Shown here in pieces: positions 34,892-49,915 of a stretch of DNA of 64,000 nt. The stretch is from a virus. The stretch is from the IMG/VR virus record IMGVR_UViG_3300037010_003016, positions 29,729-93,728 of that record, one strand, 5' to 3'. The notes under the pieces are model-generated. The model searched no databases, was not told where the DNA came from, and was given only the letters and a program-made list of their open reading frames with translations. How positions within the stretch are numbered: position 1 is the first letter of the stretch; each line of letters begins with the position of its first letter. The translations under genes were made by a program, and so were the position numbers.

Positions 34892-34902
34892 TAGCCTTCA
34901 TT

Positions 34903-34932
34903 CTTAGAGTCCTCTTTGGACTCTAAGTTTTT
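34903..34932 (+). terminator. Rho-independent terminator after the capsid gene
   Basis: CTTAGAGTCC, TCTTT loop, GGACTCTAAG, then TTTTT. Confidence 0.85.
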
Positions 34933-34993
34933 AATTAAATATCTTCTCTTTGAAGTTGTTTTGTTAAAAACTTTCTTTCAAACAATCCGCTTT

Positions 34994-35002
34994 AAATAAA
35001 TA
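34994..35002 (+). promoter_or_regulatory. T4-type late promoter candidate
   Basis: AAATAAATA, 28 bp before the papain-like protease gene. Confidence 0.55.
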
Positions 35003-35030
35003 ATTCTATCATATCATTAGGAATAGAAGT

Positions 35031-36355: not shown

Positions 36356-36356
36356 T

Positions 36357-36379
36357 TTTAAACTAAAATAAGTTAAAAT
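36357..36379 (+). promoter_or_regulatory. Middle/early-type promoter (TTTAAAC, TAAAAT)
   Basis: TTTAAAC at 36357 and TAAAAT at 36374, start-to-start 17 nt, before the 36400 gene. Confidence 0.55.
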
Positions 36380-36399
36380 AAAAATATGAAAGGATTTTT

Positions 36400-36885: not shown

Positions 36886-36897
36886 AAAGGAGAAAAT

Positions 36898-37185
36898 ATG
36901 TTTGAATTTCCTTCAGTTCCTAGATGGGTTAATAAAAAAGATGTAGTAATAGAACTTGATCCGTACGAACAAATAACTGAGTCTGGTATTATTACTGGAG
37001 TAGGAAATAGATCTGTTTTAGATAGACAAACTCAAGGTACTGTAGTTGTTGTTGGTAGTAAAGTAAAAGAGGTCGAAGTCGGTGATAAAGTAGTTTTTGG
37101 AAAAGAGTTCGGTATCGATTACACTGTTGGTGATAAGAAGTATACACAGATTCTGGAGAAACATATTCAACTCAAAATGGATTAA
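36898..37185 (+). CDS. GroES-like co-chaperonin, copy 1
   Basis: 95 aa. KDVVIELDPYEQITESGIIT, GTVVVVGSKVKEVEVGDKVV, then a terminal beta strand matches the GroES fold, with a short mobile loop at ESGIITG. Phage co-chaperonins such as T4 gp31 replace host GroES to fold the capsid protein. RBS AAAGGAG. Confidence 0.75.
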   Translation: MFEFPSVPRWVNKKDVVIELDPYEQITESGIITGVGNRSVLDRQTQGTVVVVGSKVKEVEVGDKVVFGKEFGIDYTVGDKKYTQILEKHIQLKMD

Positions 37186-37225
37186 ACTTTTTAAGCTAAA
37201 AATTTCTTAAAAGATTAAAGTTAAA

Positions 37226-37248
37226 TTTAAGAAAATTTTAGCTATAAT
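37226..37248 (+). promoter_or_regulatory. Middle/early-type promoter (TTTAAG, TATAAT)
   Basis: TTTAAG at 37226, TATAAT at 37243, between the two co-chaperonin genes; start-to-start 17 nt. Confidence 0.65.
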
Positions 37249-37296
37249 TCTTCTTGAAAAGAAATCTAATAACCAAAGATTCAATAAAGGAAGAAT

Positions 37297-37596
37297 ATGT
37301 CAGAAGAAACACAATCAATTCTTTTATGGTTAAACAAAAGAGATATAGTAATAGAGCTTGATTCTGATGAACTTGATACTTCTGATGAAGAAGGTGAAAG
37401 AATTGATTCAGAAAGACAAGCTAAAGGTACTGTAATTGCTGTTGGTAAAAAAGTAAAAAATATCAAAGAAGGTGATAGAGTAATATTTGAAAAAGCATAT
37501 TGCTTGTCTTATTCTATTTGTGGTAAAAACTATGTAAAAACCCAAGAAAGATTTATACAATTTAAGTTACATAAAGTCTTTTTGAGACACAATTAA
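37297..37596 (+). CDS. GroES-like co-chaperonin, copy 2
   Basis: 99 aa paralogue of the preceding gene. It aligns over KRDIVIELDSDELDTSDEEG, ERQAKGTVIAVGKKVKN, IKEGDRVIFEKAY and a terminal FIQFKL strand. The mobile-loop region is acidic (DTSDEEGER) instead of hydrophobic, so chaperonin binding may differ. It has its own promoter. Confidence 0.65.
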   Translation: MSEETQSILLWLNKRDIVIELDSDELDTSDEEGERIDSERQAKGTVIAVGKKVKNIKEGDRVIFEKAYCLSYSICGKNYVKTQERFIQFKLHKVFLRHN

Positions 37597-37598
37597 AA

Positions 37599-37621
37599 TT
37601 TAAACTTTCCAGAGCTATAAT
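37599..37621 (+). promoter_or_regulatory. Middle/early-type promoter (TTTAAAC, TATAAT)
   Basis: TTTAAAC at 37599 and TATAAT at 37616, upstream of dCMP deaminase. Confidence 0.65.
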
Positions 37622-37643
37622 TTCTTCCTTTAAAAGGAATATT

Positions 37644-38159
37644 ATGAACACTTTAACAGACAAAGAAAAGAAATATCATAATTTCTATATGGACATAGCA
37701 GAAAGATGTTCACTAATGTCTTTTGCTGAAAGAAAGAAAGTAGGTTGTGTTATTGTTAAAGATGGTAACATAATCGCTATGGGTTGGAATGGTATGCCTT
37801 CAGGAATGGATAATAGATGTGAAGACTTAATTACTTGTTCTTATTGTAATGGAAGCGGTTCAGTCGATATTGTTCACGGTATGGTTGATTGTGATCGTTG
37901 TGATGGAACAGGACATTTTCTTGTTACTAAAACAGAGTGTCTTCACGCAGAATTGAACGCTCTTTCTAAACTAGCTAAATCAAATAATTCTGCTGAAGGA
38001 GCTACTCTTTATGTTACTCTTTCACCTTGTGTTGATTGTGCTAAGTTGATAATACAATCAGGAATAAAAACTGTAGTATTTAAAGAGCCATATAGAGATC
38101 TTTCTGGTATTGAATTACTAGAAAAATGCGGCATAAAAGTAATATATCCACAGAAGTAA
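37644..38159 (+). CDS. dCMP deaminase with inserted DnaJ-like zinc motif
   Basis: 171 aa. Catalytic zinc motifs HAEL (in ECLHAELNAL) and PCVDC, with N-terminal GCVIVKDGNIIAMGWNG. Converts dCMP to dUMP for dTMP synthesis. Between the halves lies an insert with two C-x-x-C-x-G-x-G elements (CSYCNGSG and CDRCDGTG), as in the DnaJ zinc domain. Other phage dCMP deaminases bind a structural zinc in this region, so the insert may be structural. Confidence 0.88.
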   Translation: MNTLTDKEKKYHNFYMDIAERCSLMSFAERKKVGCVIVKDGNIIAMGWNGMPSGMDNRCEDLITCSYCNGSGSVDIVHGMVDCDRCDGTGHFLVTKTECLHAELNALSKLAKSNNSAEGATLYVTLSPCVDCAKLIIQSGIKTVVFKEPYRDLSGIELLEKCGIKVIYPQK

Positions 38160-38175
38160 AATCAAAAGGAACTTT

Positions 38176-38763
38176 ATGATAGTAAATCCAATAGCAATTG
38201 AATCAAATACTAGAGGCGAAAAACAGTATGACTGTTATAGCCGACTATTTAATAAAAATAGAACAGTATTTCTTGTAGGAGAAATAGAAGAAGAACTTGT
38301 TACTTCAGTGATATCTCAGCTGCTTTATCTTGATTCTGTTTCGGACGAGCAAATAACTATGCTTATAAACTCTCCAGGAGGAGTAATTACAGACGGCTTT
38401 TCTCTAGTTGATATTATGAGAACTATTTCTTCTCCTGTTAGAACTGTTTGTATTGGTCAAGCAGCTTCAATGGGAGCTTTCATTCTTTCTTGCGGTACTA
38501 AAGGTCAAAGATACACTTTACCTAATTCTCGTATACTCTTCCATCAACCTTTATCGGGAGTACAAGGACAGGTAACTGATATAGGAATTCACTACAAAGA
38601 AGTTATGTTCCTTAAAGAAAGACTGTATGAAATTCTAAGTGAAAATACAGGACAAAAAAAAGAAGTAATTTATGACAAATTAGAAAGAGACTGTTGGATG
38701 TCTCCAAAAGAAGCTTTAGAATTTGGAGCTATTGATCACATTAAAGAGAAACCGACGAACTGA
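38176..38763 (+). CDS. clpP: ClpP serine protease
   Basis: 195 aa, full ClpP length. Catalytic triad Ser98 (QAASMGAF), His123 (LFHQPL) and Asp172 (ERDCWMS), with spacing as in bacterial ClpP; INSPGGVITDG forms the oxyanion/strand region. ClpP forms tetradecameric barrels fed by ClpX/ClpA, which would be host-supplied as no Clp unfoldase is seen here. It may degrade tmRNA-tagged or host proteins (inference). RBS AAAAGGAAC. Confidence 0.92.
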   Translation: MIVNPIAIESNTRGEKQYDCYSRLFNKNRTVFLVGEIEEELVTSVISQLLYLDSVSDEQITMLINSPGGVITDGFSLVDIMRTISSPVRTVCIGQAASMGAFILSCGTKGQRYTLPNSRILFHQPLSGVQGQVTDIGIHYKEVMFLKERLYEILSENTGQKKEVIYDKLERDCWMSPKEALEFGAIDHIKEKPTN

Positions 38764-38808
38764 TATTAAAATAATTTACAGAATATACTCAAAGGGATGG
38801 TTATTTAA

Positions 38809-38817
38809 AAATAAATA
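38809..38817 (+). promoter_or_regulatory. T4-type late promoter candidate upstream of nrdA
   Basis: AAATAAATA, 33 bp before the nrdA-N start. A late promoter before nrdA would be unexpected, so use is uncertain. Confidence 0.35.
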
Positions 38818-38850
38818 GCCTCCCCATTTTATCTCACGAAAGGAAAAAGA

Positions 38851-39918
38851 ATGAACGAATTTGAAAGAATTATGCTTCAAGAGTCGTATGTGAATCCTGC
38901 AGCAGGAGAAAAACCCGAAGACGTTTACAAAAGAGTTTGTCGCGCTGGAGCCGACAATCCCGAACACGAAAAAAGACTTTATAGCTATTTTGAGCGAAAT
39001 TGGTTTAGAACATCAACACCAATAACAGCGAATCTAGGAAATGAAAGAGGTTTACCTATTTCTTGTTTCGTACAGCAAACTTCAGATTCTCTTAATGATA
39101 TCTTTAACAAATATTATGAGGCTATGGTTCTTGGTGCTGCTGGAGGTGGTATAGGAAATGACTTCTCAGAAGTAAGAGAGGTAGGCGCTAAAACTAAGAA
39201 CGGTAAAACATCAGGTATAATGCCTTTCCTAAAAATAAGCGAGTCTATTGCTCAAGGTATTTCTCAAGGAGGTTTGAGAAGAGCCTCTCAAGCAATTTAT
39301 CTAGATGTACATCATCCTGAAATAGAAGAATTTATAGAAATGAGAACTACAAAAGGTGCTTCTATAGAAAGAAGGATGCCTAAACTACATCACGCAGTAA
39401 AACTTACTGATGAGTTTTTAAATGCTGTCATAAACGGCGAGTCATATAACCTATACTCTAGAAAAGACGGAAGTGTAGTAAAAACTCTAGATGCTTTTGA
39501 CATATTTACAAAAATTCTTACTAAGAGACATCAACACGGCGAACCTTATCTATTCTTTTCGGAAAACGCTAATAAGAATTTGAATGAATTGTATGTGAAA
39601 GCTGGATGGAAAATAACAACTTCACAGTTATGCTTATCTGGCGATTCTATATTAGAAACAGAAGAAGGCTATAAAAAACTAAAAGATATAAAAATAGGCG
39701 ATAAAGTAAAGTCTATGAATACTGAAACAAAAGAAATTTCATTCAAAGAAGTTACTGATTTTGCTATGACTTCGCCTAAAGCTAAAGTAATGAGAATAAC
39801 AGATACTGAATCTGGCAAACAAATCGTTTGTACTCCTGACCATAAAATTTGGACAGAAAACAGAGGTTATGTTATGGCCAAAGATTTGAATGAAACTGAT
39901 GTTCTTAAAATATCTTAA
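38851..39918 (+). CDS. nrdA: Ribonucleotide reductase large subunit, N-terminal part with split-intein N half
   Basis: 355 aa. Residues 1-260 are the N-extein: class I NrdA without an ATP cone, with the redox Cys in GLPISCFVQQ. Residues 261-355 are an intein N-terminal domain: block A CLSGDSILETEEG and block B IVCTPDHKIW (T-x-x-H). The frame then ends at TAA. The partner gene starts 16 bp further on with the intein C-terminal domain. After trans-splicing the junction becomes QL|CNEI, the conserved NrdA motif holding the thiyl-radical cysteine. Confidence 0.9.
   Translation: MNEFERIMLQESYVNPAAGEKPEDVYKRVCRAGADNPEHEKRLYSYFERNWFRTSTPITANLGNERGLPISCFVQQTSDSLNDIFNKYYEAMVLGAAGGGIGNDFSEVREVGAKTKNGKTSGIMPFLKISESIAQGISQGGLRRASQAIYLDVHHPEIEEFIEMRTTKGASIERRMPKLHHAVKLTDEFLNAVINGESYNLYSRKDGSVVKTLDAFDIFTKILTKRHQHGEPYLFFSENANKNLNELYVKAGWKITTSQLCLSGDSILETEEGYKKLKDIKIGDKVKSMNTETKEISFKEVTDFAMTSPKAKVMRITDTESGKQIVCTPDHKIWTENRGYVMAKDLNETDVLKIS
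39631..39915 (+). other. Split intein, N-terminal half (IntN)
   Basis: 95 residues from Cys261 to the stop. Contains splicing blocks A and B, no endonuclease. Confidence 0.88.
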
Positions 39919-39933
39919 TAAGGGAAGAAATAT

Positions 39934-40032
39934 ATGCTCAAAATAGAATTTTTAGAGGAAGAAATTCCTGTTTATGATATAACTGTGGAGGATAACCACA
40001 ATTTTTTCGCTAATGAAATACTAGTTTCAAAC
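39934..40032 (+). other. Split intein, C-terminal half (IntC)
   Basis: 33 residues, ending V-S-N before Cys+1. Its own ATG and ribosome site make this a fractured gene rather than a frameshifted one. Confidence 0.88.
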
Positions 40033-41010
40033 TGCAATGAAATAATGTTGAGAGTAGCAGAAGATTACACTGCTGTATGTTGTTTGGCTTCAGTCAACCT
40101 AGCAAAATACGATGAGTGGAAAGACAACTACCAATTTATAGAAGATATTATGAGACTTCTTGATAATGTAATTGACGATTTTGAAAGAAAAGCTAAATCT
40201 GGAAAATTCGGTGAACCGAGAGGTTTCCAAAACTCTCTTAAATCCGCTCTATATGAAAGATCTGTTGGTCTAGGTCAAATGGGTCTTCACACATATCTCC
40301 AATCTAAAATGATACCTTTCGAGTCAGCTCTTGCTGAAGGTTTCCAAAGAAAGGTTTGTACTTTCTTGAAAGATGCTACTGATAGAGCGTCAAAAGAAAT
40401 AGCTAAAGAAAAAGGCGCTTGTCCTATGTCTATCGAATATGGAGATGGAACTGATAGATTCGTCTGTAAGATGGCTATTGCTCCTACTGGAAGTATTTCT
40501 ATTCTTTGTGACAATGTGTCTCCTGGAATAGATCCTATTATAGCTAACGCTTATATTCACGAAAATAAAACAGGAAAACACGAAATAAGAAATGTCAATC
40601 TTGAAAAGTATATCAAGAAATATGCTGAAGAGAATGGCGAAGATGATAAGTGGATTGAAAAACAGTGGAAAAGAATAATCAAAGACAGAGGTTCTGTTCA
40701 AGGTCTTGAGTGGATGAGTGACGACGCTAAACTTGTATTCAAAACAGCTTACGAAATAGACCAAAGATGGATTATTTCTCACGCTAAAGTAAGACAAGAA
40801 AAAATTGACCAAGGTCAATCCGTAAATCTATTCTTTAATCACGATGTTGATAGAAGTTATCTTGCTTATGTACATTTACAAGCTTGGAAAGCTGGATTAA
40901 AAGGTCTTTACTACTGTAGAAGTCAATCTGCTACTAAAGCTAGCTCAAATTACGAAAGAGAAATAATTCAAGAAATGGACAAATATGAAACTTGTTTGTC
41001 TTGTCAATAA
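39934..41010 (+). CDS. nrdA: Ribonucleotide reductase large subunit, C-terminal part with split-intein C half
   Basis: 358 aa. Residues 1-33 are IntC: block F VYDITVEDNHNFFANEILVS and the terminal Asn33, then Cys34 (+1). Residues 34-358 are the C-extein: CNEIML (catalytic Cys and Glu), VCCLASVNL (second redox Cys), GLYYCRSQ (radical-transfer Tyr pair) and C-terminal CLSCQ. The spliced enzyme would be 585 aa, compact because the ATP cone is missing. RBS GGGAAG lies in the 15-bp spacer. Confidence 0.9.
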   Translation: MLKIEFLEEEIPVYDITVEDNHNFFANEILVSNCNEIMLRVAEDYTAVCCLASVNLAKYDEWKDNYQFIEDIMRLLDNVIDDFERKAKSGKFGEPRGFQNSLKSALYERSVGLGQMGLHTYLQSKMIPFESALAEGFQRKVCTFLKDATDRASKEIAKEKGACPMSIEYGDGTDRFVCKMAIAPTGSISILCDNVSPGIDPIIANAYIHENKTGKHEIRNVNLEKYIKKYAEENGEDDKWIEKQWKRIIKDRGSVQGLEWMSDDAKLVFKTAYEIDQRWIISHAKVRQEKIDQGQSVNLFFNHDVDRSYLAYVHLQAWKAGLKGLYYCRSQSATKASSNYEREIIQEMDKYETCLSCQ

Positions 41011-41025
41011 AAAGGATGGTGTAAA

Positions 41026-42486
41026 ATGTCAAAAAAATATAATTTATTTCATACTGATTCAAAATCATATAAACCATTTCATTATCCAAGCGCTTATGAT
41101 AGATATAAAACTCACGAGGTAGCCCTTCACTGGACTACCGAAGAGATAGACCTTTCAGGCGATATGAAAGACTGGACTACTATTTCTATAGAAGAAAAGC
41201 ACATAATAACAAGTATATTTCAAGGTTTTGTTCAAAATGACACAGAAGTAGGTATGGGATATGATATTCTTATTAGAGCATTTAAACCCAATGAAGTTAA
41301 AATGATGTTGAGAAGCTTCGGAAACAGAGAATCTCTACATCAAGACGCTTATAGTTTGCTTCTTGATACTCTAGGCTTTCCAGAAGAGTTCTATAAAGAA
41401 TACGAGTATATTCCTAGTCTTTCTCTAAAATATGATTATATACATAAAGCAAGAGTTAGACAATTCCATTACTATGTTTCTGAATATGGTATAGAAAAAG
41501 CTGATATAGAATTCAGAAAAGATGTTGCTAGAATGATAGCTGTTTATTCTGGTTTAGTAGAAGGTATATCTTTATTTGCTCAGTTTGCTATACTAGCTTC
41601 TTTCTCTAGAGATGGTAAATTTCCTGGTATGAACAAGGTTTTGTCGTGGAGTATCCTTGATGAAAATTGTATAATAGAAGGTACGGAAGTTCAATTAGAA
41701 GATGGTTCTTGGAAAAAGATAGAAGATCTTCAGCCAGGAGAAAAAATACTCCAATTCGATATGGAAACAGAAGAATATTCTTTTGTAGAACCAACACACT
41801 TTACTAAATCTTGTCCAGATTACTATTATAAATTTGAGTCAGATGATGTCGAACAAATAGTTACTCCTGGTCATAGAATGGTATTTAAAAGAGATGGAAA
41901 AGCACAAGAAGAAATAGCAGAAAAATATGAATTTGTGGAAGGTGATGAATTTATAAAAGGCGGTAGTAGTAAAATAGAAAAAACAAAGCTTGAAAATACA
42001 GATAAAAAAAATTTCTATTGTCCAACTGTTCCAGGAAAAGCTTTTGTTATTAGAAGTAATGGCAAAGTTTCTGTTACTGGAAACTGTCACATCGACGGCA
42101 ACGCTTGGTTATTCAAAACTATAATAAAAGAGAATAGACAAATCTGGAATGATGATTTTAAAAGAGATATTTACGAAGCTGCCAGACAGATTGTAGCTAA
42201 AGAAGAAGATTATATTGATTATGTATTCAAACTAGGAGACTTGAATAATCTTACTAAAGATGAAATGAAACTTTATGTAAGATATATTGCTGATCAAAGA
42301 TTAAAACAATTCGGACTCAAACCGAACTACGGTATCAAAGAAAATCCTCTTCCTTGGATGGAAAATCAGTTGAGTCTGACTACTTACACTAATTTCTTTG
42401 AAAGTACTGTCTCAGAATATTCTTTTGGTACTATGACTGGAAGTTGGGACGAGGCTAAAGAAAAAATGAAAGAACTTTTCTCGTGA
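41026..42486 (+). CDS. nrdB: Ribonucleotide reductase small subunit with mini-intein
   Basis: 486 aa precursor; 347 aa after splicing. Ferritin-like R2 with helices carrying iron ligands (e.g. REDLHQDAY-type E-S-L-H-Q-D in NRESLHQDAYS). Residues 215-353 are a contiguous mini-intein: block A CIIEGTEVQLEDGSWKKI, block B IVTPGHRMVF, blocks F/G FVIRSNGKVSVTGN, then Cys354. The junction is DEN|CHIDG, splitting an E-x-x-H iron-ligand pair. It follows nrdA by 15 bp. Confidence 0.92.
   Translation: MSKKYNLFHTDSKSYKPFHYPSAYDRYKTHEVALHWTTEEIDLSGDMKDWTTISIEEKHIITSIFQGFVQNDTEVGMGYDILIRAFKPNEVKMMLRSFGNRESLHQDAYSLLLDTLGFPEEFYKEYEYIPSLSLKYDYIHKARVRQFHYYVSEYGIEKADIEFRKDVARMIAVYSGLVEGISLFAQFAILASFSRDGKFPGMNKVLSWSILDENCIIEGTEVQLEDGSWKKIEDLQPGEKILQFDMETEEYSFVEPTHFTKSCPDYYYKFESDDVEQIVTPGHRMVFKRDGKAQEEIAEKYEFVEGDEFIKGGSSKIEKTKLENTDKKNFYCPTVPGKAFVIRSNGKVSVTGNCHIDGNAWLFKTIIKENRQIWNDDFKRDIYEAARQIVAKEEDYIDYVFKLGDLNNLTKDEMKLYVRYIADQRLKQFGLKPNYGIKENPLPWMENQLSLTTYTNFFESTVSEYSFGTMTGSWDEAKEKMKELFS
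41668..42084 (+). other. Mini-intein in NrdB (no homing endonuclease)
   Basis: 139 residues with all splicing blocks and no LAGLIDADG or HNH insert. Confidence 0.9.
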
Positions 42487-42494
42487 AAGTTTTT

Positions 42495-42517
42495 TTTAAA
42501 ATAAAATCCGCTATAAT
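42495..42517 (+). promoter_or_regulatory. Middle/early-type promoter (TTTAAA, TATAAT)
   Basis: TTTAAA at 42495 and TATAAT at 42512, upstream of the membrane protein gene. Confidence 0.6.
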
Positions 42518-42538
42518 AAAAATTAAAAAGGAAACAAA

Positions 42539-42922
42539 ATGTTTATTTATCTAATCGGTGTGATTTTCTATATTTTCGGTAGCGGATTTGTTTCTGCTTA
42601 TACAGCTATGTTTTGGGTCTCGTTAGTTGGCTTCAGTATTGTTAGCTTTATTGCTTTTTTGATTCTTGTATTTAGTGGAGCTGCAATAGGCTCTTCTGTC
42701 GGGAATAATAAAGGTTTGTCAACAGTTCTCGGTGCTTTAGGCGGAACGGTGTTACTTCCATTTATTATGGTTTTTGGAATTTTGAAAATTGCTCTTCTTT
42801 GGTATGTAATGTCAAATGTTGCTATTACAGGTATGACAGGTACAACTCTTGTTGCTGCTGTTGCGCACGCTGTCATCACATTGCTTGAATGGATAAAAAC
42901 TATTTTACAACCGAAAGCTTAA
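42539..42922 (+). CDS. Multi-pass membrane protein
   Basis: 127 aa, mostly hydrophobic. At least three, probably four, transmembrane segments; the first includes IYLIGVIFYIFGSGF, and a Gly-rich loop (GSSVGNNKGLSTVLGALGG) sits in the middle. No charged C-terminal tail typical of class I holins, though a holin role cannot be excluded. Function unknown. Confidence 0.55.
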   Translation: MFIYLIGVIFYIFGSGFVSAYTAMFWVSLVGFSIVSFIAFLILVFSGAAIGSSVGNNKGLSTVLGALGGTVLLPFIMVFGILKIALLWYVMSNVAITGMTGTTLVAAVAHAVITLLEWIKTILQPKA

Positions 42923-42925
42923 ATA

Positions 42926-43480
42926 ATGCCAAAAACATTTGTTATATCTGATACACACTTCTTTCACTTTAACTGTATCAGATACAACTCTCGTCCATTC
43001 TCTGATGAGTATGAGATGAACGAGACTATCGCTAAAAATTGGAATTCTGTAGTCTCTCCTGAAGACACGGTAATCCATCTTGGCGACCTTTCTTGTGGGT
43101 TACAAGGCAGAAAGGATTCTTTAAGCGAACTTTGTCGAAGCCTTAACGGTAATATAATTCTTATAAAAGGAAATCACGACCATTTCGACTCTTCATTTTA
43201 TATAAACGAATGTGGTTTTAAGGCTTTCATAAAGTTTATTAAAACTGAAAGAGTATTTTTCTCACATATTCCTGTTGTTGATGAATACGAAGTGTTCGAT
43301 AATAAAGAAGCCTTCCAGCAGTATAAAAAAGAATGGGAAGAATGGAAATCTGGTAAACAAAATCCAATAAACATATTTGGACACGTCCATAACACACATT
43401 TTAAGTCGACTCAGGGTATCTGCGTTTCTGTAGAAAATACGAACTATACTCCGCTCGATTTGTCTACAATTTTAAACTAA
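42926..43480 (+). CDS. Calcineurin-like metallophosphoesterase
   Basis: 184 aa. All five motifs are present: ISDTHFFH, HLGDLS, LIKGNHDH, FFSHIP and FGHVHN. Small phage/bacterial phosphoesterase type; substrate unknown. Starts 3 bp after the membrane protein gene. Confidence 0.8.
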   Translation: MPKTFVISDTHFFHFNCIRYNSRPFSDEYEMNETIAKNWNSVVSPEDTVIHLGDLSCGLQGRKDSLSELCRSLNGNIILIKGNHDHFDSSFYINECGFKAFIKFIKTERVFFSHIPVVDEYEVFDNKEAFQQYKKEWEEWKSGKQNPINIFGHVHNTHFKSTQGICVSVENTNYTPLDLSTILN

Positions 43481-43493
43481 AATAGGATAAAAT
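43471..43493 (+). promoter_or_regulatory. Middle/early-type promoter giving a near-leaderless mRNA
   Basis: TTTAAAC at 43471 and TAAAAT at 43488, start-to-start 17 nt. The next ATG is at 43501, leaving almost no leader. Confidence 0.5.
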
Positions 43494-43500
43494 ACAAGTT

Positions 43501-43908
43501 ATGGAAAAAAGAAATTCGTGGAATGTAATGTCTAGTGCATTTAAAAAAGACTTCTATCCGACAGAAGAAGAAATAAAAGACATTTCTTCTTTTGTCTTTT
43601 GTAGATTTTTATCAAACCATCCTTTTGGTGCTCTTATAGTAAACTTTATTAATGTTTACCCAGAAGTGCCGATTGAAAATCAATATCAACTTGTTAGATA
43701 TTCTATGCCGAAAATTCAGTATTTAAAGTATCCATCAATTAAAAAAATATCTAAGACAGAAGAGTTAGAAAATATAATGGATTATTTTAACTGTTCAGAA
43801 AAAACAGCACTAGAATATTTAGAGTTAATGAGTGATGAAGAAAAGGAAAGGATTATGAAAAAATTCGAGCATCACAGAATAGAAAAAAGAAAGAATAGAA
43901 AGAAATGA
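43501..43908 (+). CDS. Clamp loader small subunit, gp62-like
   Basis: 135 aa. The sequence F-C-R-F-L-S-N-H-P-F-G, a conserved Q-Y-x-L-V-R-Y-S segment, and the C-terminal EELENIMDYFNCSEKTALEY with LELMSDEEKERIMKKF follow the gp62 pattern of T4-superfamily phages. It would partner gp44 (24002), though the genes are 19 kb apart here instead of adjacent as in T4. No ribosome site precedes the ATG. Confidence 0.65.
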   Translation: MEKRNSWNVMSSAFKKDFYPTEEEIKDISSFVFCRFLSNHPFGALIVNFINVYPEVPIENQYQLVRYSMPKIQYLKYPSIKKISKTEELENIMDYFNCSEKTALEYLELMSDEEKERIMKKFEHHRIEKRKNRKK

Positions 43909-44870
43909 TTTTACATATAAGTCATACAGATCTTGATGGTATAGGATGTCAAACTTGTGTAATAGAAACATTTCCAGATGAAGAGGTATCTCTTAGAAAT
44001 ATTTCATATATTCATATAGAACCAACACTTAATATTCTTTCTTCAATAGCAGGAAAGTATTCTAAGGTTTTTATTACTGACTTAATGTTTAAAAACGAAA
44101 AATATTTAATTACTCTACAGGAAATATCTAACAAATATCCTAATGTAGAATTTTATTTTTTCGACCATCATAATTATGATTTTAATATTAAGAAATATCA
44201 AACTAAAAACCTTATAATTTTACATACAAATAAAATGTCAGCTAGTAAAATTACTTTCCTAGCTTGTAAGAAAAAATGGAATCTAGAAAATTCAAAGCTT
44301 GAAAGATTTATAGAACATATAAGTGCTTATGATATCTTCGATAGAGATAGTATTTTCTTTGAAAAAGGATTTAAACTTTTCAGACTTACAACTTGTGAAA
44401 AGTATAGGTTTCAAAACATAGTTAAACTCATTGATGATATGATAGCTTCAGATTATTTACTATTTTCTGAAGAACACGAAGAAATGATAAAAAATAAAAT
44501 CGAAGAAAATAAAAGAACTCTCGAGAAATATAAGAATTCTGGAGGTATAATTTTCGAAAAGAACTGTGTAGCAGCATTTTCAACAAATGAATATATTATA
44601 GATCTAATAAGAGAAGAATATGAAAAAGACTATGATATATTCATTAATATGACTCTTTTTGGAAGAGGCTCTGTAAGATTATCTGATAGTTTAAATACTA
44701 AAGAGTTTGATGTTAAGAGTATACTAGAAGATATTTGTAAAAGAAAAGAATCCTTTAAAGAATTAGATGGTCACGAAAAAGCTTTTGGTATTCTTTTTGA
44801 TAAAAATCACGAGAGCTATAAGAAAGACATTGTATCCATAGTCCAAGAGTTTTTCAAATATTTAAAATAG
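43905..44870 (+). CDS. DHH-family phosphoesterase
   Basis: 321 aa. DHH motifs: SHTDLDGIGCQ, VFITDLMF, FFDHHNYD and HISAYDIFDRD. Members are nanoRNase/pAp phosphatase or cyclic-dinucleotide phosphodiesterases; substrate here is unknown. Could recycle oligoribonucleotides or remove a second-messenger defence signal (inference). ATGA overlap with the gp62-like gene. Confidence 0.75.
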   Translation: MILHISHTDLDGIGCQTCVIETFPDEEVSLRNISYIHIEPTLNILSSIAGKYSKVFITDLMFKNEKYLITLQEISNKYPNVEFYFFDHHNYDFNIKKYQTKNLIILHTNKMSASKITFLACKKKWNLENSKLERFIEHISAYDIFDRDSIFFEKGFKLFRLTTCEKYRFQNIVKLIDDMIASDYLLFSEEHEEMIKNKIEENKRTLEKYKNSGGIIFEKNCVAAFSTNEYIIDLIREEYEKDYDIFINMTLFGRGSVRLSDSLNTKEFDVKSILEDICKRKESFKELDGHEKAFGILFDKNHESYKKDIVSIVQEFFKYLK

Positions 44871-44901
44871 ATTTTTATAAAATATTCCATAAAGGATGTA
44901 C

Positions 44902-46251
44902 ATGGAAGAACAAATTCTACACTCCTTACTTTATTCCCCGGAATATTTCAGTAAGGTATTCACTCATTTAAAGCGAACACATTTTTCTAAAGTCGAAAAC
45001 GCTGAAATTTTTTCGGCTATAAAGTCTTATTTTGAAAGGACAGAAGAATACCCTAGACCAAAAGAAATAGGTCTGTTTATAAAAAATGATCCAAAATACT
45101 CTGAGTCTAGAGATTTTCAAAAAGGCATTCTGAGTCATTTCAAAGAAATATTCGTTGACTCAACTCCTATACATAATTTGCAGTATATGGTTGAAGAAAC
45201 TGAAAAGTTTGTCAAGCTAAAAGAACTACAAGACGCTATTCTTTCTTCGGCTAAAATAATGCAAAAACAGGGTGAGCTTACTCAAATACCTGTTATGATA
45301 GAAGAAGCCCTTAAGATACACTTTGATTCTGATATAGGACACGATTATAATTCTGAAATATCTGAAAGGATCGAGTACTATAATAAAAAGAATTTCGGAT
45401 ATACTTCCGGTATTGGAGAGTTCGATAAGAAACTAGGCGGCTTCCGACCAAAGACTTTAAACATTTTTGCTTCACCATCACACGGAGGTAAATCTGCTCT
45501 TTTGGTCCATACAGCAGCTTCTAACTTATTAAAGAAAAAGAATGTTCTGTATATTACACTAGAAATGTCAGAACTAGAAATATCGAAAAGAATAGATGCT
45601 AATATTCTTAATATAGATCTTTTTGAGTTATCGAAAATAGACAAAACAGTCTTGAAATCGAAATTTGAAGAAGTTAGACCACAACTAGGAAAACTTGTAA
45701 TTAAAGAGTATCCTGCTGGATCTATGGATATTGTGACTCTTAATGGTCTTATAACTGACCTTAAGAACAAAAAGGACTTTGTACCTGATTTAGTTATTAT
45801 AGACTATATAGGCTTGATGAAGTCTTCAAGAGGAAGTTTAGGAACATTCGGTAACACTTATAGCCTTATGAAATCTGTTGCCGAAGAGTGTCACGGATTT
45901 GCTAAGAAACAAAATTTACCAGTTGTGACAGCCGTTCAGTTGAATAGAAGTTCTTACGGCAATATAGATGCAACCGAGGACACCGTTTCAGATTCTCTCG
46001 GTTTTGTTATGACAGCTGACACTCTTACTCTTATGATATCTAACGATGAAATGAGAAAGAATGGACAGATAATTCTATCAATTAGAAAAAATAGGAATAC
46101 AGGCGACCTATCTAAAATATTGATTGGCGTAAACTTTAAACGAATGCAATTCTTCGACGCCGCTGGGACAATAGAAGAAACTTCTCCAGCCGAAAGCACG
46201 CTAATGAAAGACAATGAATTATTTGAAGCGTTCACAAGTCAAAGTTTTTGA
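44902..46251 (+). CDS. Replicative DNA helicase gp41 (DnaB-like)
   Basis: 449 aa from ATG 44902, preceded by AAAGG at good spacing; an in-frame ATG at 44896 is too close to that site. Walker A SPSHGGKSA near residue 191, LYITLEMSELEISKRID, Walker B VIIDYIGLM near residue 298, VVTAVQLNRSS and SIRKNRNTG. Hexameric fork helicase. No intein in this copy. Confidence 0.92.
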   Translation: MEEQILHSLLYSPEYFSKVFTHLKRTHFSKVENAEIFSAIKSYFERTEEYPRPKEIGLFIKNDPKYSESRDFQKGILSHFKEIFVDSTPIHNLQYMVEETEKFVKLKELQDAILSSAKIMQKQGELTQIPVMIEEALKIHFDSDIGHDYNSEISERIEYYNKKNFGYTSGIGEFDKKLGGFRPKTLNIFASPSHGGKSALLVHTAASNLLKKKNVLYITLEMSELEISKRIDANILNIDLFELSKIDKTVLKSKFEEVRPQLGKLVIKEYPAGSMDIVTLNGLITDLKNKKDFVPDLVIIDYIGLMKSSRGSLGTFGNTYSLMKSVAEECHGFAKKQNLPVVTAVQLNRSSYGNIDATEDTVSDSLGFVMTADTLTLMISNDEMRKNGQIILSIRKNRNTGDLSKILIGVNFKRMQFFDAAGTIEETSPAESTLMKDNELFEAFTSQSF

Positions 46252-46303
46252 TATCATCCGAAATAGAAGTTGACTTCAAAATAATTTCTAAAAAACTTTT
46301 TAT

Positions 46304-46326
46304 TTTAAACTTTTTTAGAATATAAT
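46304..46326 (+). promoter_or_regulatory. Middle/early-type promoter (TTTAAAC, TATAAT)
   Basis: TTTAAAC at 46304, TATAAT at 46321. The predicted transcript starts with a hairpin (TAGAAAG...CTTTCTA, 46334-46360), whose loop holds GATAAATA, a possible late promoter. Confidence 0.65.
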
Positions 46327-46377
46327 TTGACTTTAGAAAGTGATAAATAATCGCTTTCTATATAAAAGGAGATAAAA

Positions 46378-46581
46378 ATGAAAAAAGTTCTTGTAAGCCT
46401 TCTTGTTATAGCTGGTCTTGCTTCTGTAGGTTTTGCAGCTGAAGCTAAAAAAGCTGATGAAAACAAAACTGAAAAAGTCGAATCAAAAAAAGCTAAAAAA
46501 GCTGAAGAAAGAAAAGCTAAAAAAGCTGAAGCAAAAAAAGCAGCTGAAGCTAAAAAAGCTGAAGCAAACGCTACAAAATAA
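46378..46581 (+). CDS. Exported Lys/Ala/Glu-repeat small protein
   Basis: 67 aa. Clear Sec signal peptide (MKKVLVSLLVIAGLASVGFA, cleavage predicted near A-A-E). The mature part is nearly only Lys, Ala and Glu with AKKAE/KKAEAKKA repeats, probably one amphipathic helix. Strong AAAGGAG site. It would act in the periplasm; no lipobox, so not a classical o-spanin. Function unknown. The tmRNA region follows directly. Confidence 0.7.
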   Translation: MKKVLVSLLVIAGLASVGFAAEAKKADENKTEKVESKKAKKAEERKAKKAEAKKAAEAKKAEANATK

Positions 46582-46587
46582 AACGAT

Positions 46588-46624
46588 CTAAAGCCGAATA
46601 ATACACCTTTGTGCTAGGCTTTAG
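46588..46624 (+). terminator. 8-bp hairpin after the exported-protein gene
   Basis: CTAAAGCC/GGCTTTAG, 21-nt loop, no U-run; may be an attenuator or the first element of the structured RNA region. Confidence 0.45.
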
Positions 46625-46628
46625 AAAT

Positions 46629-46812
46629 AAGTCCATCTAGTTGCCAGTAACCTCTTTTGTCGAAAGAGGCTAGACGGATATGCGGCGTCAAATAGCGCCG
46701 CTGACTGTGTGCTTAATAAAAAGTCCATTTAGTTATCAGTAACCTCTTTCAATGATAGGAAGAGGCTAGATGGATACACGGGAGTAACTACCCGTTGATT
46801 GTTTAATGAAGC
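46629..46812 (+). ncRNA. Tandem pair of a ~92-nt structured RNA motif
   Basis: Two copies start at 46629 and 46721. Each has AAGTCCAT[CT]TAG...CTAGA[CT]GGATA closing stem, an internal CAGTAA strand, a CCTCTT/AAGAGG stem, then a second GC-rich hairpin (GCGGCG/CGCCGC in copy 1, ACGGG/CCCGT in copy 2) and a YTGAYTGT tail. Hairpin sequences differ but pairing is kept, and the closing stem shows consistent changes. No coding frame explains it. Known family not recognised. Confidence 0.65.
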
Positions 46813-46820
46813 ACTTAATA

Positions 46821-46862
46821 ACTTTCTTCGATGGCTATTCGAGAATAGCCATCGAAGAAAGT
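46821..46862 (+). ncRNA. 20-bp perfect hairpin in the tmRNA upstream region
   Basis: ACTTTCTTCGATGGCTATTC pairs perfectly with its downstream copy, leaving a 2-nt loop. It could be an RNase III-type processing site for the downstream tmRNA (inference). Further hairpins follow at 46891-46912, 46927-46946 and 46984-47017. Confidence 0.6.
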
Positions 46863-47030
46863 CATTCGAATAATTTCTCATTGAGTATTCAGAAGTAAGT
46901 GCACCTCTACTTCAATGTCTCGAGAAATCCTTCGGCAGCAAAGGATCGCATAGTTTTAAGGGTGTGCGTATAGTTGTTGTCTCAGCTGGGAACATTGCTT
47001 AAACAATGAAACCAGCTTCCATTTAAACAC

Positions 47031-47318
47031 GGGCGGTTAAGGGTAAGATCCTGTTATTGTGTAGGTAAGAAATACACTTGAAAACAAATAAGTGCAAACA
47101 ATACAAACTTTAAACCTGCAGCGGAGTTGGCAGCTTAACAAGAAACAACTCCTTTTGCTACGAAGTTGAATTTTTTCTTTTCCTTTCTTTTCACTTTTCT
47201 CTAAAAACATTGTAAAACTCCTATTTGAACTCAAAATCGTTTCAAGTGCGATTTTGTTTTAACTATTTCTTAACGAAGATATCAGGATAACACGGCTTCG
47301 ATGCCGTATCGTCCACCA
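47031..47318 (+). ncRNA. ssrA: Phage-encoded tmRNA (trans-translation RNA)
   Basis: 288 nt. Acceptor stem GGGCGGT (47031) with ATCGTCC (47308, includes G-U pairs), discriminator A and encoded CCA (47316-47318). H2 ATCCTG (47048)/CAGGAT (47283). T arm ACGGC-TTCGAT-GCCGT, loop one base short. The tag frame at 47094-47138 reads ANNTNFKPAAELAA then TAA. It begins GCAAAC as in other tmRNAs and has its stop in the loop of helix GGAGTTG/CAACTCC (H5). The D-arm lacks the usual TTCGAC, and the pseudoknot region after H5 is short and AT-rich. A smpB gene lies 1 kb downstream. Confidence 0.88.
47094..47138 (+). other. tmRNA tag-peptide reading frame
   Basis: 14 codons plus TAA: ANNTNFKPAAELAA. The C-terminal L-A-A is the typical ClpXP/ClpAP degradation end. 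The ANN and F-x-P-A positions resemble Campylobacter-type tags. Confidence 0.88.
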
Positions 47319-47366
47319 TTTCTTAAATTAACCTTAATTTTTAATTTTGCTGAAATTTAAGATTAG

Positions 47367-47389
47367 TTTAAGAAATTTTTAGTTATAAT
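47367..47389 (+). promoter_or_regulatory. Middle/early-type promoter (TTTAAG, TATAAT)
   Basis: TTTAAG at 47367, TATAAT at 47384, drives the 47418-48703 operon that ends in smpB. Confidence 0.7.
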
Positions 47390-47417
47390 TTCTCAAATTA
47401 AGTAAAAAGGCTTGAAA

Positions 47418-47696
47418 ATGAAAACTATCGAAAACGATATCAAAACTTTCCAAACTTCTAAAATTATTTTCGAAGAAGGCGTTTCAGAAGAAAATATAGC
47501 TAAAGCTATTGAACTTGCTAACCAAATCGATTATTACTATAATTATATTGATGACGGTGCTCAATATAGAGCTGCGGGTAGAAAAAATAAAATTCTGGCT
47601 GAAAAACTATTAGAACTTGGCTGTGTAGAAATAATAGTACCATTTAATGGTAGAAACTGTGAAATAAAAACTGAAACTTATTGTAAAGGATTTTAA
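47418..47696 (+). CDS. Hypothetical protein
   Basis: 92 aa from ATG 47418 (AAAAGG at 8 nt); TTG 47412 is in frame but too close to that site. Acidic N-terminus, DYYYNYIDDG motif, two Cys near the C-terminus. No family recognised. First gene of the operon leading to smpB; overlaps the next by TAATG. Confidence 0.55.
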   Translation: MKTIENDIKTFQTSKIIFEEGVSEENIAKAIELANQIDYYYNYIDDGAQYRAAGRKNKILAEKLLELGCVEIIVPFNGRNCEIKTETYCKGF

Positions 47697-47893
47697 TGAG
47701 AAAAAGAGTAGTAATGACTTGTCTAGTAACAAAAACCTTTTATGTAGATGAAGAAACAGAGCAAGGCGTAGTGAACAAAATCAACAATTCGTTGGCGGAA
47801 TGGAATAATACTGACCTTTTTGAGACGATAAAGCCGGACAAAATAATAAAAATACAAAATATTAAAATTAAAGAAGTAGAGGAAGGATTTTAA
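47696..47893 (+). CDS. Hypothetical protein
   Basis: 65 aa, predicted alpha/beta (RVVMTCLVTKTFYVDEETEQ, then IKIQNIKIKEVEEGF). Translationally coupled to both neighbours. Function unknown. Confidence 0.5.
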   Translation: MRKRVVMTCLVTKTFYVDEETEQGVVNKINNSLAEWNNTDLFETIKPDKIIKIQNIKIKEVEEGF

Positions 47894-47894
47894 T

Positions 47895-48296
47895 ATGGGT
47901 ATTCAAGCAAAAATATATGGAGACTTGTATATAGCTAGAAAAAACAACTTACCAACAAAAGAAGATCTATCGTTCCTTCTTGGAGAAGTGATGGCTCCAG
48001 GAAAGAATAAAGGTAACAGGGAGAGTACTGACGGTGAATGTGTTCAAGTAATTAGAAACTTGTTGAAGAACGAATATTTGAAAGACTCGGAAAGGGCGCT
48101 TTATGAATCTTATCTTCCAAAACAAATGAATGACGATGAAGTAGTAAATGGAATTAAAAAGCTAGTTTCTGAAAAATCTCTTCCTGCTGTTCCAAAATCG
48201 CTAGGAGAAATAAACGCTCATTTTAAACAAAATTTTGATGGTCTGTATAATCCTAAAAGTCTATCAGAACTATCTAAACAGGTGTTAGGTATATGA
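47895..48296 (+). CDS. YqeY/GatB-domain-like protein
   Basis: 133 aa. The LYESYLPKQMNDDEVVNGIK segment and terminal SLSELSKQVLGI fit the YqeY/GatB tail domain (tRNA-binding helical domain), with an N-terminal helical part as in YqeY (FLLGEVMAPGKNKG...GECVQVIRNLLK). Lies immediately before smpB (4-bp overlap), so a link to aminoacyl-tRNA or tmRNA handling is plausible (inference). Confidence 0.6.
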   Translation: MGIQAKIYGDLYIARKNNLPTKEDLSFLLGEVMAPGKNKGNRESTDGECVQVIRNLLKNEYLKDSERALYESYLPKQMNDDEVVNGIKKLVSEKSLPAVPKSLGEINAHFKQNFDGLYNPKSLSELSKQVLGI

Positions 48297-48703
48297 TATC
48301 ATTCGCTAAGAACACAAAAGCGAAATTCGATTATACAATCGAAAAGGAGCTTGAGTGTTCCTTGATACTTTTTGGACAAGAGGTAAAGGCCATCAGAGAA
48401 CACCGAGCGAACTTAAAAGGTGAATATTGTATGATTGACTCTAAAGGTGTCTATACGAAATTTCATATAGGAAAGGTTGACGATCCTACAAGGTTAAAGA
48501 CAGTTCTCTGTACTAAGAAAGAAAGAGAGAAAATGATGAAATTTCTTTCTGAAAAGGGAACTACTATTATACCTCTCGAGTTATATCAAGACGAAAAAAC
48601 AGTTATTAGGCTAAAAGTTGGATTTTGTAGAGGTAAAAAACAATACGAAAAGAGAGAAACAATAAAAGAAAGAGATTTAATAAGAAGAGGCGATGGCAAT
48701 TAA
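48293..48703 (+). CDS. smpB: SmpB, tmRNA-binding protein
   Basis: 136 aa. Follows the SmpB pattern: AKFDYTIEKELECSLILFGQ, EVKAIREHRANLKGEYC, a DPTRLKTVLCTKKERE segment, GTTIIPLELYQDEKTVIRLK, VGFCRGKKQYEKRETIKERD. It binds the tRNA-like domain of tmRNA and positions it on stalled ribosomes. The C-terminal tail after KERD is very short (LIRRGDGN), whereas bacterial SmpB has a longer helical tail that probes the empty mRNA channel. Confidence 0.9.
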   Translation: MISFAKNTKAKFDYTIEKELECSLILFGQEVKAIREHRANLKGEYCMIDSKGVYTKFHIGKVDDPTRLKTVLCTKKEREKMMKFLSEKGTTIIPLELYQDEKTVIRLKVGFCRGKKQYEKRETIKERDLIRRGDGN

Positions 48704-48721
48704 GTTTAAAGGATAAGAATT

Positions 48722-49051
48722 ATGCTACTTGATGAAAATATAGGTATAGACTTCGGTTTTGGATTCGGCGACGGATCTGGTAGCGGTTATGGTGCAGGTT
48801 CAGGTAGTGGTTCTGGAATGGGAGATGGATATGGTGATGGATATGGATTTGGTTATGGTTCGGGCGAAGGCACTAGTTATGGAGATGGAGACGGTGATGG
48901 ATCTGGTAGTGGCTCTGGTTCTGGTAACGACTATGGCTGTGGCGGCGGCTCTGGTTATGGTCGTAACTATGGTTGTGGTAGTGGTTTTGGCTGTGGTAAT
49001 GGAGACTGGGAAGATGATTCAGACCAAGATGAAATTTTAAATAAAGGATAA
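48722..49051 (+). CDS. Glycine-dipeptide-repeat protein, copy 1
   Basis: 109 aa, nearly all (Gly-X)n with X = Ser, Asp, Tyr, Phe, Cys, after a short N-terminal MLLDENIGIDF. The acidic C-terminus is DWEDDSDQDEILNKG. DNA has a 6-bp period (GGNGAN/GGNTCN). Followed 3 bp later by the DUF6948-like gene and then a second copy. Function unknown; material-like or structural roles are possible. Confidence 0.65.
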   Translation: MLLDENIGIDFGFGFGDGSGSGYGAGSGSGSGMGDGYGDGYGFGYGSGEGTSYGDGDGDGSGSGSGSGNDYGCGGGSGYGRNYGCGSGFGCGNGDWEDDSDQDEILNKG

Positions 49052-49054
49052 GAA

Positions 49055-49432
49055 ATGATTAATATAAAAGATTTAACTCTAGAACAAATAACTGAACTTA
49101 AGTGCTTGTTTGAGAATATGACAATTAAAGGCTGTAATGAAATGGTAGGAACATATTCTATCATAAGAACTTACTCTGCTGGAGTATGGTTTGGCAAGGT
49201 ACTACAAAAAGAAGGTAATGAAATTATTCTAGGAGAAGCTAGAAGACTTTATTACTGGAAAACAGCTAATAAAGGTATTAGTCTAAGTGAAGTATCTATT
49301 GCCGGTCTAGATAATAGTAGTAAAGTATGCGAAGCTGTAGAAAAAGTATGGCTTCAACCAATAGAGATAATTCCTTGTACTGATGTTGCGATAGAAAACA
49401 TAAAAAGTCAAAAAAGTTATGTGGTTAGATAG
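49055..49432 (+). CDS. DUF6948-like protein
   Basis: 125 aa. Pattern YSIIRTYSAGVWFGKVLQKE, then ILGEARRLYYWKTANKGISL and C-terminal PIEIIPCTDVAIENIKS matches a small conserved phage/mobile-element family I associate with DUF6948. It is flanked by two glycine-dipeptide-repeat genes. Biochemical role unknown. Confidence 0.6.
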   Translation: MINIKDLTLEQITELKCLFENMTIKGCNEMVGTYSIIRTYSAGVWFGKVLQKEGNEIILGEARRLYYWKTANKGISLSEVSIAGLDNSSKVCEAVEKVWLQPIEIIPCTDVAIENIKSQKSYVVR

Positions 49433-49712
49433 ACACATTAATAAAAGTTCCGGATTCGGTAATGGTACTGGTGATGGATTTGGTTCACAGTTTGGATTTG
49501 GAGATGGTAACGGATCTGGAGATGGTAACGGATCTGGATACGGCTGTGGACTAGGTTGCGGTTCTGCAAACGGTCAAGGTTCTATATTTAATGATGGCGA
49601 TGGTGTTGGTTACGGTATCGGAGACGGTTATGGCAATGGAGATGGTTATGGCGCTGGATATGGTTACGGAGACGGTAACGGATCTGGTGGTTATGGTGGT
49701 GGAGAAGGTTGA
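49419..49712 (+). CDS. Glycine-dipeptide-repeat protein, copy 2
   Basis: 97 aa, starting inside the 3' end of the DUF6948-like gene. (Gly-X)n composition with X = Asp, Asn, Ser, Tyr, Phe, Cys; short N-terminus MWLDRHINKSS. Hexanucleotide-periodic DNA. Paralogue of the 48722 gene. Confidence 0.6.
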   Translation: MWLDRHINKSSGFGNGTGDGFGSQFGFGDGNGSGDGNGSGYGCGLGCGSANGQGSIFNDGDGVGYGIGDGYGNGDGYGAGYGYGDGNGSGGYGGGEG

Positions 49713-49816
49713 TTTTTATATAGTTTCGGCAATGGGTGATTTGTTGGAAAATAAAAAAGTATGATACAGAGATAAAGAGTTTAGTTGTTCACTAATAATA
49801 GAGTCAGTTTAAAACT

Positions 49817-49838
49817 TGAGAAGCCGAATTGCTTCTCA
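49817..49838 (+). terminator. 8-bp hairpin downstream of glycine-repeat genes
   Basis: TGAGAAGC, CGAATT loop, GCTTCTCA; AT-rich follow-on without a clean U-run. Confidence 0.5.
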
Positions 49839-49892
49839 TACTATAAAATAAGAGATAAAAAATTTAGTTTTGAAGATTAAATTTAAGCTTTC

Positions 49893-49915
49893 TTTAAGAA
49901 TAGTTTAGTTATAAT
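49893..49915 (+). promoter_or_regulatory. Middle/early-type promoter (TTTAAG, TATAAT)
   Basis: TTTAAG at 49893, TATAAT at 49910. Confidence 0.7.

Follow-up and report, generated by a model that had tools for sequence, protein, structure and literature searches.

Does a bacteriophage bring its own means of rescuing stalled ribosomes? This question was raised by a 64,000-base stretch of viral DNA (hereafter the window; bases 29729-93728 of the 93,728-base virus record IMGVR_UViG_3300037010_003016), in which an initial annotation, made from the letters alone, had proposed a transfer-messenger RNA (tmRNA) of 288 nucleotides (nt) and, about 1 kb downstream, a full gene of its protein partner SmpB. 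The identity of these two as phage tmRNA and phage SmpB is well supported by the analyses below. We consider it probable that, together with an extra ClpP of the phage, they make up a phage-borne trans-translation system.

Anatomy and detection of the tmRNA

The tmRNA gene (ssrA) was located at 47031-47318 on the plus strand, as were smpB, clpP and the other genes of the smpB unit, the inverted repeat and the non-coding stretch described below. Folding of the 288 bases produced the tmRNA plan unguided and, along with a purpose-made descriptor, confirmed the acceptor stem, encoded CCA, T arm, helices H2 and H5 and tag frame proposed initially. The acceptor stem of 7 bp (47031-47037 with 47308-47314, GGGCGGU/AUCGUCC) had pair probabilities of 0.80-1.0, and its third pair in the minimum-free-energy fold was the G.U corresponding to G3.U70. 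The T arm (47292-47307, pair probabilities 0.83-0.93) consisted of a 5-bp stem and a six-base loop, UUCGAU, instead of seven bases; with the 3' acceptor strand, discriminator A and CCA (47316-47318) it filled the segment 47292-47318, as delimited by the fold and the RF00023 alignment. Acceptor, T arm, CCA and a stemless D loop were thereby predicted as in a tRNA-like domain. Most pairs of H2 (5' strand 47048-47074, 3' strand 47264-47288) reached 0.74-0.99, with only 0.23-0.28 in an inner three-pair piece; an initial H2 model, GTTAT/ATAAC, was dropped at a pair probability of 0.18 versus 0.75-0.82 for ATCCTG/CAGGAT and a neighbouring pair. Helix H5 (47123-47152) was predicted at 0.99-1.0 and held the stop codon of the tag in its loop. 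The tag reading frame itself (47094-47138, GCA to TAA), delimited by the descriptor work and by comparison with Campylobacterota tags, starts with an alanine codon, encodes ANNTNFKPAAELAA and has a hydrophobic/alanine tail.

Other parts of the RNA were reduced. The D loop (47038-47047) was predicted as ten unpaired bases, UAAGGGUAAG, without TTCGAC, the conserved D-loop sequence of tmRNA, which was found in all 12 Campylobacterota tmRNAs compared. A 6-bp hairpin (47075-47094), extending to the first base of the resume codon, occupied the usual place of pseudoknot PK1, and the sole strong structure that the fold program, which cannot display pseudoknots, gave for the PK2-PK4 region was a 9-bp hairpin (47232-47256). 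The fold energy of the whole RNA was moderately below that of shuffled sequences (z -2.4, 0/100 as low); its structural strength, as modelled, lies in specific helices rather than in overall fold energy. It should be added that tagging in E. coli is reported to survive the replacement of PK1 by a stable hairpin and the loss of PK2-PK4 (PMC3968760), so the reduced phage RNA could work.

A match to the tmRNA family model across 47031-47318 had been expected. Under lax settings RF00023 did yield a full-model match at 47041-47318 (E = 9.2e-5 for the 94-kb record, 0.0014 for 351 bases), but at 13.5 bits it stayed below the cut-off of 47, and its alignment displaced the 5' acceptor strand inwards by ten bases. 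Since RF00023 matches of tRNA length (~75 nt) or bare T-arm length in other records score similarly or higher, this match alone proves little and was rejected as proof of a tmRNA. A permuted-tmRNA reading (RF04321, 47002-47138, 21.5 of 47 bits, E 0.087) was rejected as well, because the ends of the one-piece RNA pair and carry CCA.

The descriptor required a 7-bp acceptor stem with G1, G3 and U70, a 5-bp T stem, a TTCRA loop of 6-7 bases, NCCA and a spacing of 180-420 nt. It was composed with the phage sequence in view and was hence also run, with a spacing limit of 480, on DNA from elsewhere. At the original spacing it returned a single match on both strands of the window, exactly the tmRNA, and none in 400 order-1 Markov windows; at the wider spacing it returned none in 80 T4-like phage loci (717 kb). 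Among 51 genome loci picked by tag pattern, its 14 matches were precisely the 14 tmRNAs identified there by their tags, 13 of them agreed on by ARAGORN. In 78 SmpB loci it gave 15 matches, spread over 13 loci, and for ten of these matches ARAGORN agreed on a tmRNA; the matches in L167, L172 and L173 were unconfirmed, and 5 of the 15 ARAGORN tmRNAs of these loci were missed. The likeness to tmRNA is not one expected by chance.

The tag start ANNxNFxPA was common to the phage ANNTNFKPAAELAA and Campylobacterota tags. A search of the genome collection with the pattern ANN[T/A/V/I/M]NFxPA gave 51 stretches, 14 of them tmRNA tags and 37 not tmRNAs, and all 14 tmRNAs belonged to Campylobacterota by record titles; by sequence, the start of the phage tag reads as a Campylobacterota signature. 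Among the closest tags were ANNTNFRPAYAAA (L249, a Helicobacteraceae genome) and ANNTNFAPAYAKVA (L232, L258 and L266), and the DNA of the tag start, GCAAACAATACAAA, was kept almost to the base, as in L266. The initial view of a tag unlike the Campylobacter type holds for the C-terminal half only, where the phage has AELAA versus YAKAA or YAKVA in 12/14 Campylobacterota tags. The LAA end is present, and ClpX is reported to bind the C-terminal LAA of the E. coli tag (PMC3968760).

Diverged copies of the tmRNA suitable for covariation were found neither by tag patterns in IMG/VR nor by blastn in phage records. The full tag pattern led only to two near-identical records of the same phage; the sole extra match of a looser pattern (L285) was discarded, its frame running on without stop and ARAGORN calling no tmRNA there. 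A blastn search of 46585-47330 against phage records gave one weak match, inside a microvirus gene.

The partner protein SmpB and a proposed further partner, ClpP

The smpB gene (48293-48703, 136 aa) is complete, lies about 1 kb from the tmRNA in the same direction and overlaps the preceding YqeY-like gene by 4 bases. As had been proposed, its product is an SmpB: Pfam SmpB (PF01668) was matched with 109.7 bits versus a gathering score of 27 (E 1.5e-31), and the AlphaFold model (pLDDT 88) had 21 matches in the Protein Data Bank at E<=0.001, every one an SmpB chain, with Thermotoga maritima SmpB at TM 0.86 and E 2.8e-13. The central loop, FHIGKVDDPTRLK, is not of normal length: the Campylobacterota SmpBs of the alignment have 8 residues more at this place, and most of the phage SmpBs 5-8 more. 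The initial annotation had noted neither this shortening nor the PK1-replacing hairpin nor the ClpP that the phage encodes. The SmpB of another phage locus, L137, is similarly short, with an asterisk-marked ARAGORN tmRNA about 30 bases downstream. The short C-terminal tail noted earlier was borne out, the protein ending about 6 residues before that of E. coli (numbering from PMC4151336). In our own alignment, RGKK, a Y for H136, EKR for DKR and equivalents of K143 and R145 were retained (residues per PMC4151336).

Phage SmpB was 29-35% identical to nine Campylobacterota SmpBs. In a tree of 60 SmpBs, covering 44 of 78 non-self SmpB loci and 9/11 Campylobacterota rows (L274 and L277, missed by the motif search, were left out), it sat on a very long branch (1.83 changes/column) with no supported neighbour, a branch too long for the tree to answer where this SmpB came from. 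Most viral rows (38/50) fell into one group, separate from the nine Campylobacterota rows, with support of 91/92, which is not firm.

Proteins tagged by tmRNA are degraded by Clp unfoldases working with the peptidase ClpP; PMC3968760 names ClpXP. The phage gene clpP (38176-38763, 195 aa), about 8 kb from the tmRNA, is the proposed downstream partner. Its product was assigned by Pfam (217 of 20.2 bits), NCBIfam models and the catalytic triad S98-H123-D172, for which we assumed the positions of E. coli ClpP; it fits ClpP models (1.4e-69) far better than a head-maturation model (1.1e-17). A DNA search with window positions 30000-49900 against 397 Campylobacterota genomes found a match in 319; among the matches listed, nearly all lay near 38364-38604, inside clpP, and a few in a lysine-alanine-rich open reading frame (ORF) near 46440-46580. 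The protein was 49.7-54.5% identical to ten Campylobacterota ClpPs, the only bacterial ones in the comparison; its identity to the phage ClpPs compared was 44.5% at most, with a maximum of 49.5% for a faecal 'Bacteriophage sp.' fragment lacking annotation. It should also be noted that a gene of a papain-like cysteine protease (35031-35858; Pfam Peptidase_C1, 2.1e-14) precedes clpP by 2-3 kb.

Furthermore, ClpP accompanied tmRNA in other SmpB-bearing records. It was present in 11/12 records with a tmRNA over the Rfam cut-off versus 11/25 without (Fisher p 0.011), in 13/14 versus 9/23 when two sub-threshold full-length tmRNAs were counted (p 0.0016), and in 5/5 versus 4/13 within records of 90-220 kb (p 0.029); kinship among part of the records makes these p-values too good. 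The samples were non-random, with 34/78 non-self SmpB loci in the Rfam scan and 31/34 of those in the ClpP test. Among records without SmpB, 0/16 had ClpP, a weak control given no p-value, in which the absence of SmpB refers to the whole record for G001, to the vicinity of gp41 for 14 records and to the organism tally for Campylobacter phage F341. In G012 and G025 the tmRNA is preceded on its own strand, at a distance of about 0.6 kb, by clpP. No mention of phage tmRNA being linked to ClpP turned up in a literature search over partial texts, though such a report may still exist.

The phage, its relatives and the surrounding genes

Among the window proteins, portal, prohead protease, scaffold and capsid protein were all of T4 type. 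The gp23 protein was closest, at ~50% identity, to Campylobacter phages CP21 and relatives (best 15 of 2,492 records), and gp41 was closest to Campylobacter phage F341 (37% identical). By these protein comparisons the phage is T4-like with Campylobacter phages as nearest kin, and its host is probably a Campylobacterota, or Campylobacter-type, bacterium. The host search by DNA matches (397 Campylobacterota genomes, two candidates scored per genome, so that CRISPR spacers could be overlooked) showed likeness at gene level only.

The phage is represented by records of 94 kb and 138 kb, and the tmRNA-smpB region was unchanged in two IMG/VR records, this 138-kb one and one of 23 kb, both near-identical relatives. 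The nearest other IMG/VR relative found (L006, 68 kb; gp41 45% identical) yielded neither SmpB nor tmRNA, and Campylobacter phage F341 gave no tmRNA match. In L006, gp41 is, by eye, directly followed by an apparent DNA polymerase, which seems split within 5037-9543: an ORF separates the two parts, and the latter part opens at 8560 like the C-terminal piece of an intein. Among the matches listed, 80 loci with gp41 relatives (32-36% identical) held no SmpB inside the loci and one ARAGORN tmRNA, marked, as in L137, with an asterisk that we take to mean 'permuted'. None of 66 phage records with an SmpB match was tallied as Campylobacter phage, and no Bacillus phage appeared in this tally.

The huge-phage and Lak records searched resemble this phage in carrying tmRNA and SmpB on one genome, with a tmRNA over the Rfam cut-off in 3/6 and ClpP in 5/6. 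We presume these records to be part of the set for which phage-borne tmRNA and SmpB were already reported. That report (PMC7162821) concerned huge phages; the six genomes measure 540-735 kb, whereas the present T4-like phage is known from 94- and 138-kb records, has a shorter RNA (288 nt) scoring below the cut-off and encodes SmpB 1 kb from it. The chromosomal ssrA-smpB of Campylobacterota shares the ANNxNFxPA start and much of its DNA with the phage; however, its RNA has 357-376 nt and TTCGAC in all 12 cases compared, unlike the 288-nt phage RNA, and its SmpB has a longer central loop. Bacillus phage G is similar in having a tmRNA (67.6 bits) and a ClpP-like gp257 but differs in the ClpX-like gp258 adjoining the latter. 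Phage-borne tmRNA is also described for mycobacteriophage, marine and Streptomyces phages (PMC4131195, PMC9004378, PMC5764925), and for 402/18,146 phages in one survey (PMC9004378); the available portions of these three papers make no mention of a phage SmpB beside the RNA. SmpBs of Carsonella, Hodgkinia and haemoplasmas are without the central loop (PMC4131195), and the loop is likewise reduced in the phage SmpB; those are bacteria with reduced genomes, whereas here we deal with a phage in which the RNA partner is reduced too. The tmRNA of phage DS6A, which has little beyond the tRNA-like domain, was reported as an inhibitor (PMC4131195, PMC11915505). The phage RNA is the shortest tagged tmRNA among those compared, the DS6A one in print being smaller. 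What is new in the present case is an RNA so strongly reduced, an SmpB with a shortened loop and a separate ClpP, all in a T4-like phage with probable Campylobacterota hosts.

SmpB itself is widespread in viral DNA, with 547/578 pattern-matched IMG/VR stretches encoding a relative. A tmRNA over the Rfam cut-off was found in 9/34 SmpB-bearing IMG/VR records and none over it in 25/34, so some phages may bring SmpB alone. The lack of TTCGAC, rightly noted for the phage D loop, turned out not to be peculiar to it: the exact sequence was missing in 13/15 other phage tmRNA matches whose 5' ends were examined, many of them with unusual tags. Where a phage match exceeded the Rfam cut-off in the loci examined, ARAGORN called it in two cases out of 12. 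The group L194, L196-L203 and L017-L019 holds phage tmRNA matches over or near the cut-off, not called by ARAGORN, with odd tags (...ELAIAA, ...VAVA) and D loops like TATTGAT.

Downstream of the tmRNA, an inverted-repeat search revealed an A+T-rich repeat followed by TTTTT (47318-47376), a possible terminator, although a terminator scan requiring at least 3 G-C pairs does not list it. A TATAAT at 47384-47389 was seen by eye and is not in the promoter-scan list. According to the ORF list, the smpB unit is tightly packed: its first gene (47412-47696, ATG at 47418) and the next (47696-47893), overlapping by one base, had no function assigned upon a Pfam scan, and they are followed by a gene of a YqeY-like protein (47895-48296; PHROG tRNA amidotransferase 3.1e-14; Pfam YqeY 1.6e-5, with 25.5 bits slightly under the cut-off of 27) and by smpB. 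Short glycine-rich repetitive ORFs (48722-49051 and 49419-49712) lie downstream of smpB.

On its 5' side the tmRNA abuts a non-coding stretch (46590-47030) recognised by repeat search and by folding, with z -8.2 against 100 shuffles. It contains a tandem pair of a ~90-nt element (46629-46718 and 46721-46818), the arms of which differ in places yet still pair by eye, and then a near-perfect hairpin with 24-nt arms (46817-46866). No Rfam family matched 46590-47030 at gathering scores, and among 285 loci its core motif was confined to records of this phage. Elsewhere in the window, the ribonucleotide reductase large subunit is encoded by two ORFs within 38851-41010, arranged as in a split intein: the former (38851-39918) ends in an intein N-terminal part and the latter (39934-41010) begins, by eye, with a C-terminal part. 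The small subunit (41026-42486) has a Hint domain inside.

Proposed function and rival explanations

From these data we infer the following course of events. The 288-nt RNA would be processed to a tmRNA and charged with alanine by virtue of G3.U70, and phage SmpB would escort it into ribosomes stalled on broken messages during infection. The 14-codon frame would be read to its stop, the ribosome freed and (A)ANNTNFKPAAELAA appended to the stalled peptide; Clp unfoldases read such tags, and the extra phage ClpP may speed up disposal. As supposed in the initial annotation, such a system could be useful while host mRNA is degraded and might be specialised. Both partners are altered where they may meet, in the D loop and the central loop, and a private, co-evolved pair is therefore possible. 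An extended version, in which tmRNA and SmpB jointly lost their host-type contacts, phage ClpP takes the tagged proteins and the three genes form a recurrent, sometimes neighbouring, module of large phages serving as an orthogonal tag-and-destroy line, appears doubtful to us.

Several observations weigh against a functional phage-borne system. ARAGORN called neither tRNA nor tmRNA in the window, and Rfam at gathering scores gave no match to the RNA; standard gene finders miss it because it is strongly worn down. NCBIfam cut-offs were missed both by SmpB (equivalog models, 108 of 130 and 107.7 of 119.1 bits) and by ClpP (TIGR00493, 222.5 of 308.6 bits; PRK00277, 234 of 249 bits). Our alignment shows no equivalents of W147 and R153, residues of importance in E. 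coli SmpB (PMC4151336). The six-base T loop and the D loop without TTCGAC could weaken the contact of the T and D loops, reported as necessary for SmpB binding (PMC3968760), and the altered contact site and SmpB loop would fit a weak or inhibitory pair equally as well as a co-evolved one. Both near-identical relatives are without any change in tmRNA-smpB from which selection might be read. The association with ClpP comes from a chosen sample of partly related phages, vanishes in records >220 kb (6/6 versus 6/7) and counts one weak ClpP-like match (G010, 4.7e-27); moreover, 4/5 other ClpP-bearing large phages had no tmRNA over the cut-off, phage G being the one with a tmRNA. The Pfam scan, which covered proteins of the window but not the remaining genome, recognised no Clp unfoldase.

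What else could the locus be? That an unrelated intergenic stretch resembles a tmRNA by chance would accord with the sub-cut-off Rfam score and the modest fold z of -2.4, but the descriptor's silence in simulated windows and T4-like phage loci, a tag motif found, among tmRNAs, in Campylobacterota only, and SmpB nearby reduce this idea to a negligible likelihood. A decoy is a more serious proposal: phage RNA and/or SmpB would titrate host SmpB, tmRNA or ribosomes, slow down trans-translation in the host and so let phage proteins escape tagging, as the inhibitory DS6A tmRNA suggests, and a worn tRNA-like domain with its SmpB could bind without working. For such a purpose, however, a complete tag frame with an -LAA end and H5 at its stop would be needless, as would the tag start GCAAACAATACAAA kept so closely; the phage also brings SmpB, and ClpP fits degradation. 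We regard a decoy as unlikely.

Signs of wear, namely the missing TTCGAC and PK1, the little structure predicted for the PK2-PK4 region, the short SmpB loop and tail and the long branch, might also denote a decaying, inactive remnant of an acquired ssrA-smpB pair. Against such decay speak the pairing of acceptor, T arm, H2 and H5, the retained G3.U70 and CCA, the open tag and SmpB frames and the tight packing of the smpB unit, and we hold a remnant to be improbable. Finally, the three components might have other tasks: SmpB could regulate functions of the host, ClpP could take part in replication or the maturation of heads, and the RNA could belong to a larger structured non-coding RNA from about 46590. 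The far stronger folding of 46590-47030 than of its shuffles would suit this, as would roles in replication or assembly proposed for Clp proteins of jumbo phages (PMC6102473, PMC11242549); on the other side, a T4-type prohead protease (S77) exists alongside ClpP in this phage, and the phage ClpP prefers ClpP models to the head-maturation one, which leaves this alternative with a very low probability.

The reading we prefer remains a phage-borne trans-translation system. If active, this would be a small natural tagged tmRNA, showing how little of the system suffices, and possibly an orthogonal rescue pair. The data suggest a link of phage tmRNA with ClpP that is testable across many genomes. 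Moreover, with the RNA described here missed by both ARAGORN and the Rfam cut-off, phage tmRNAs are under-counted by gene finders.

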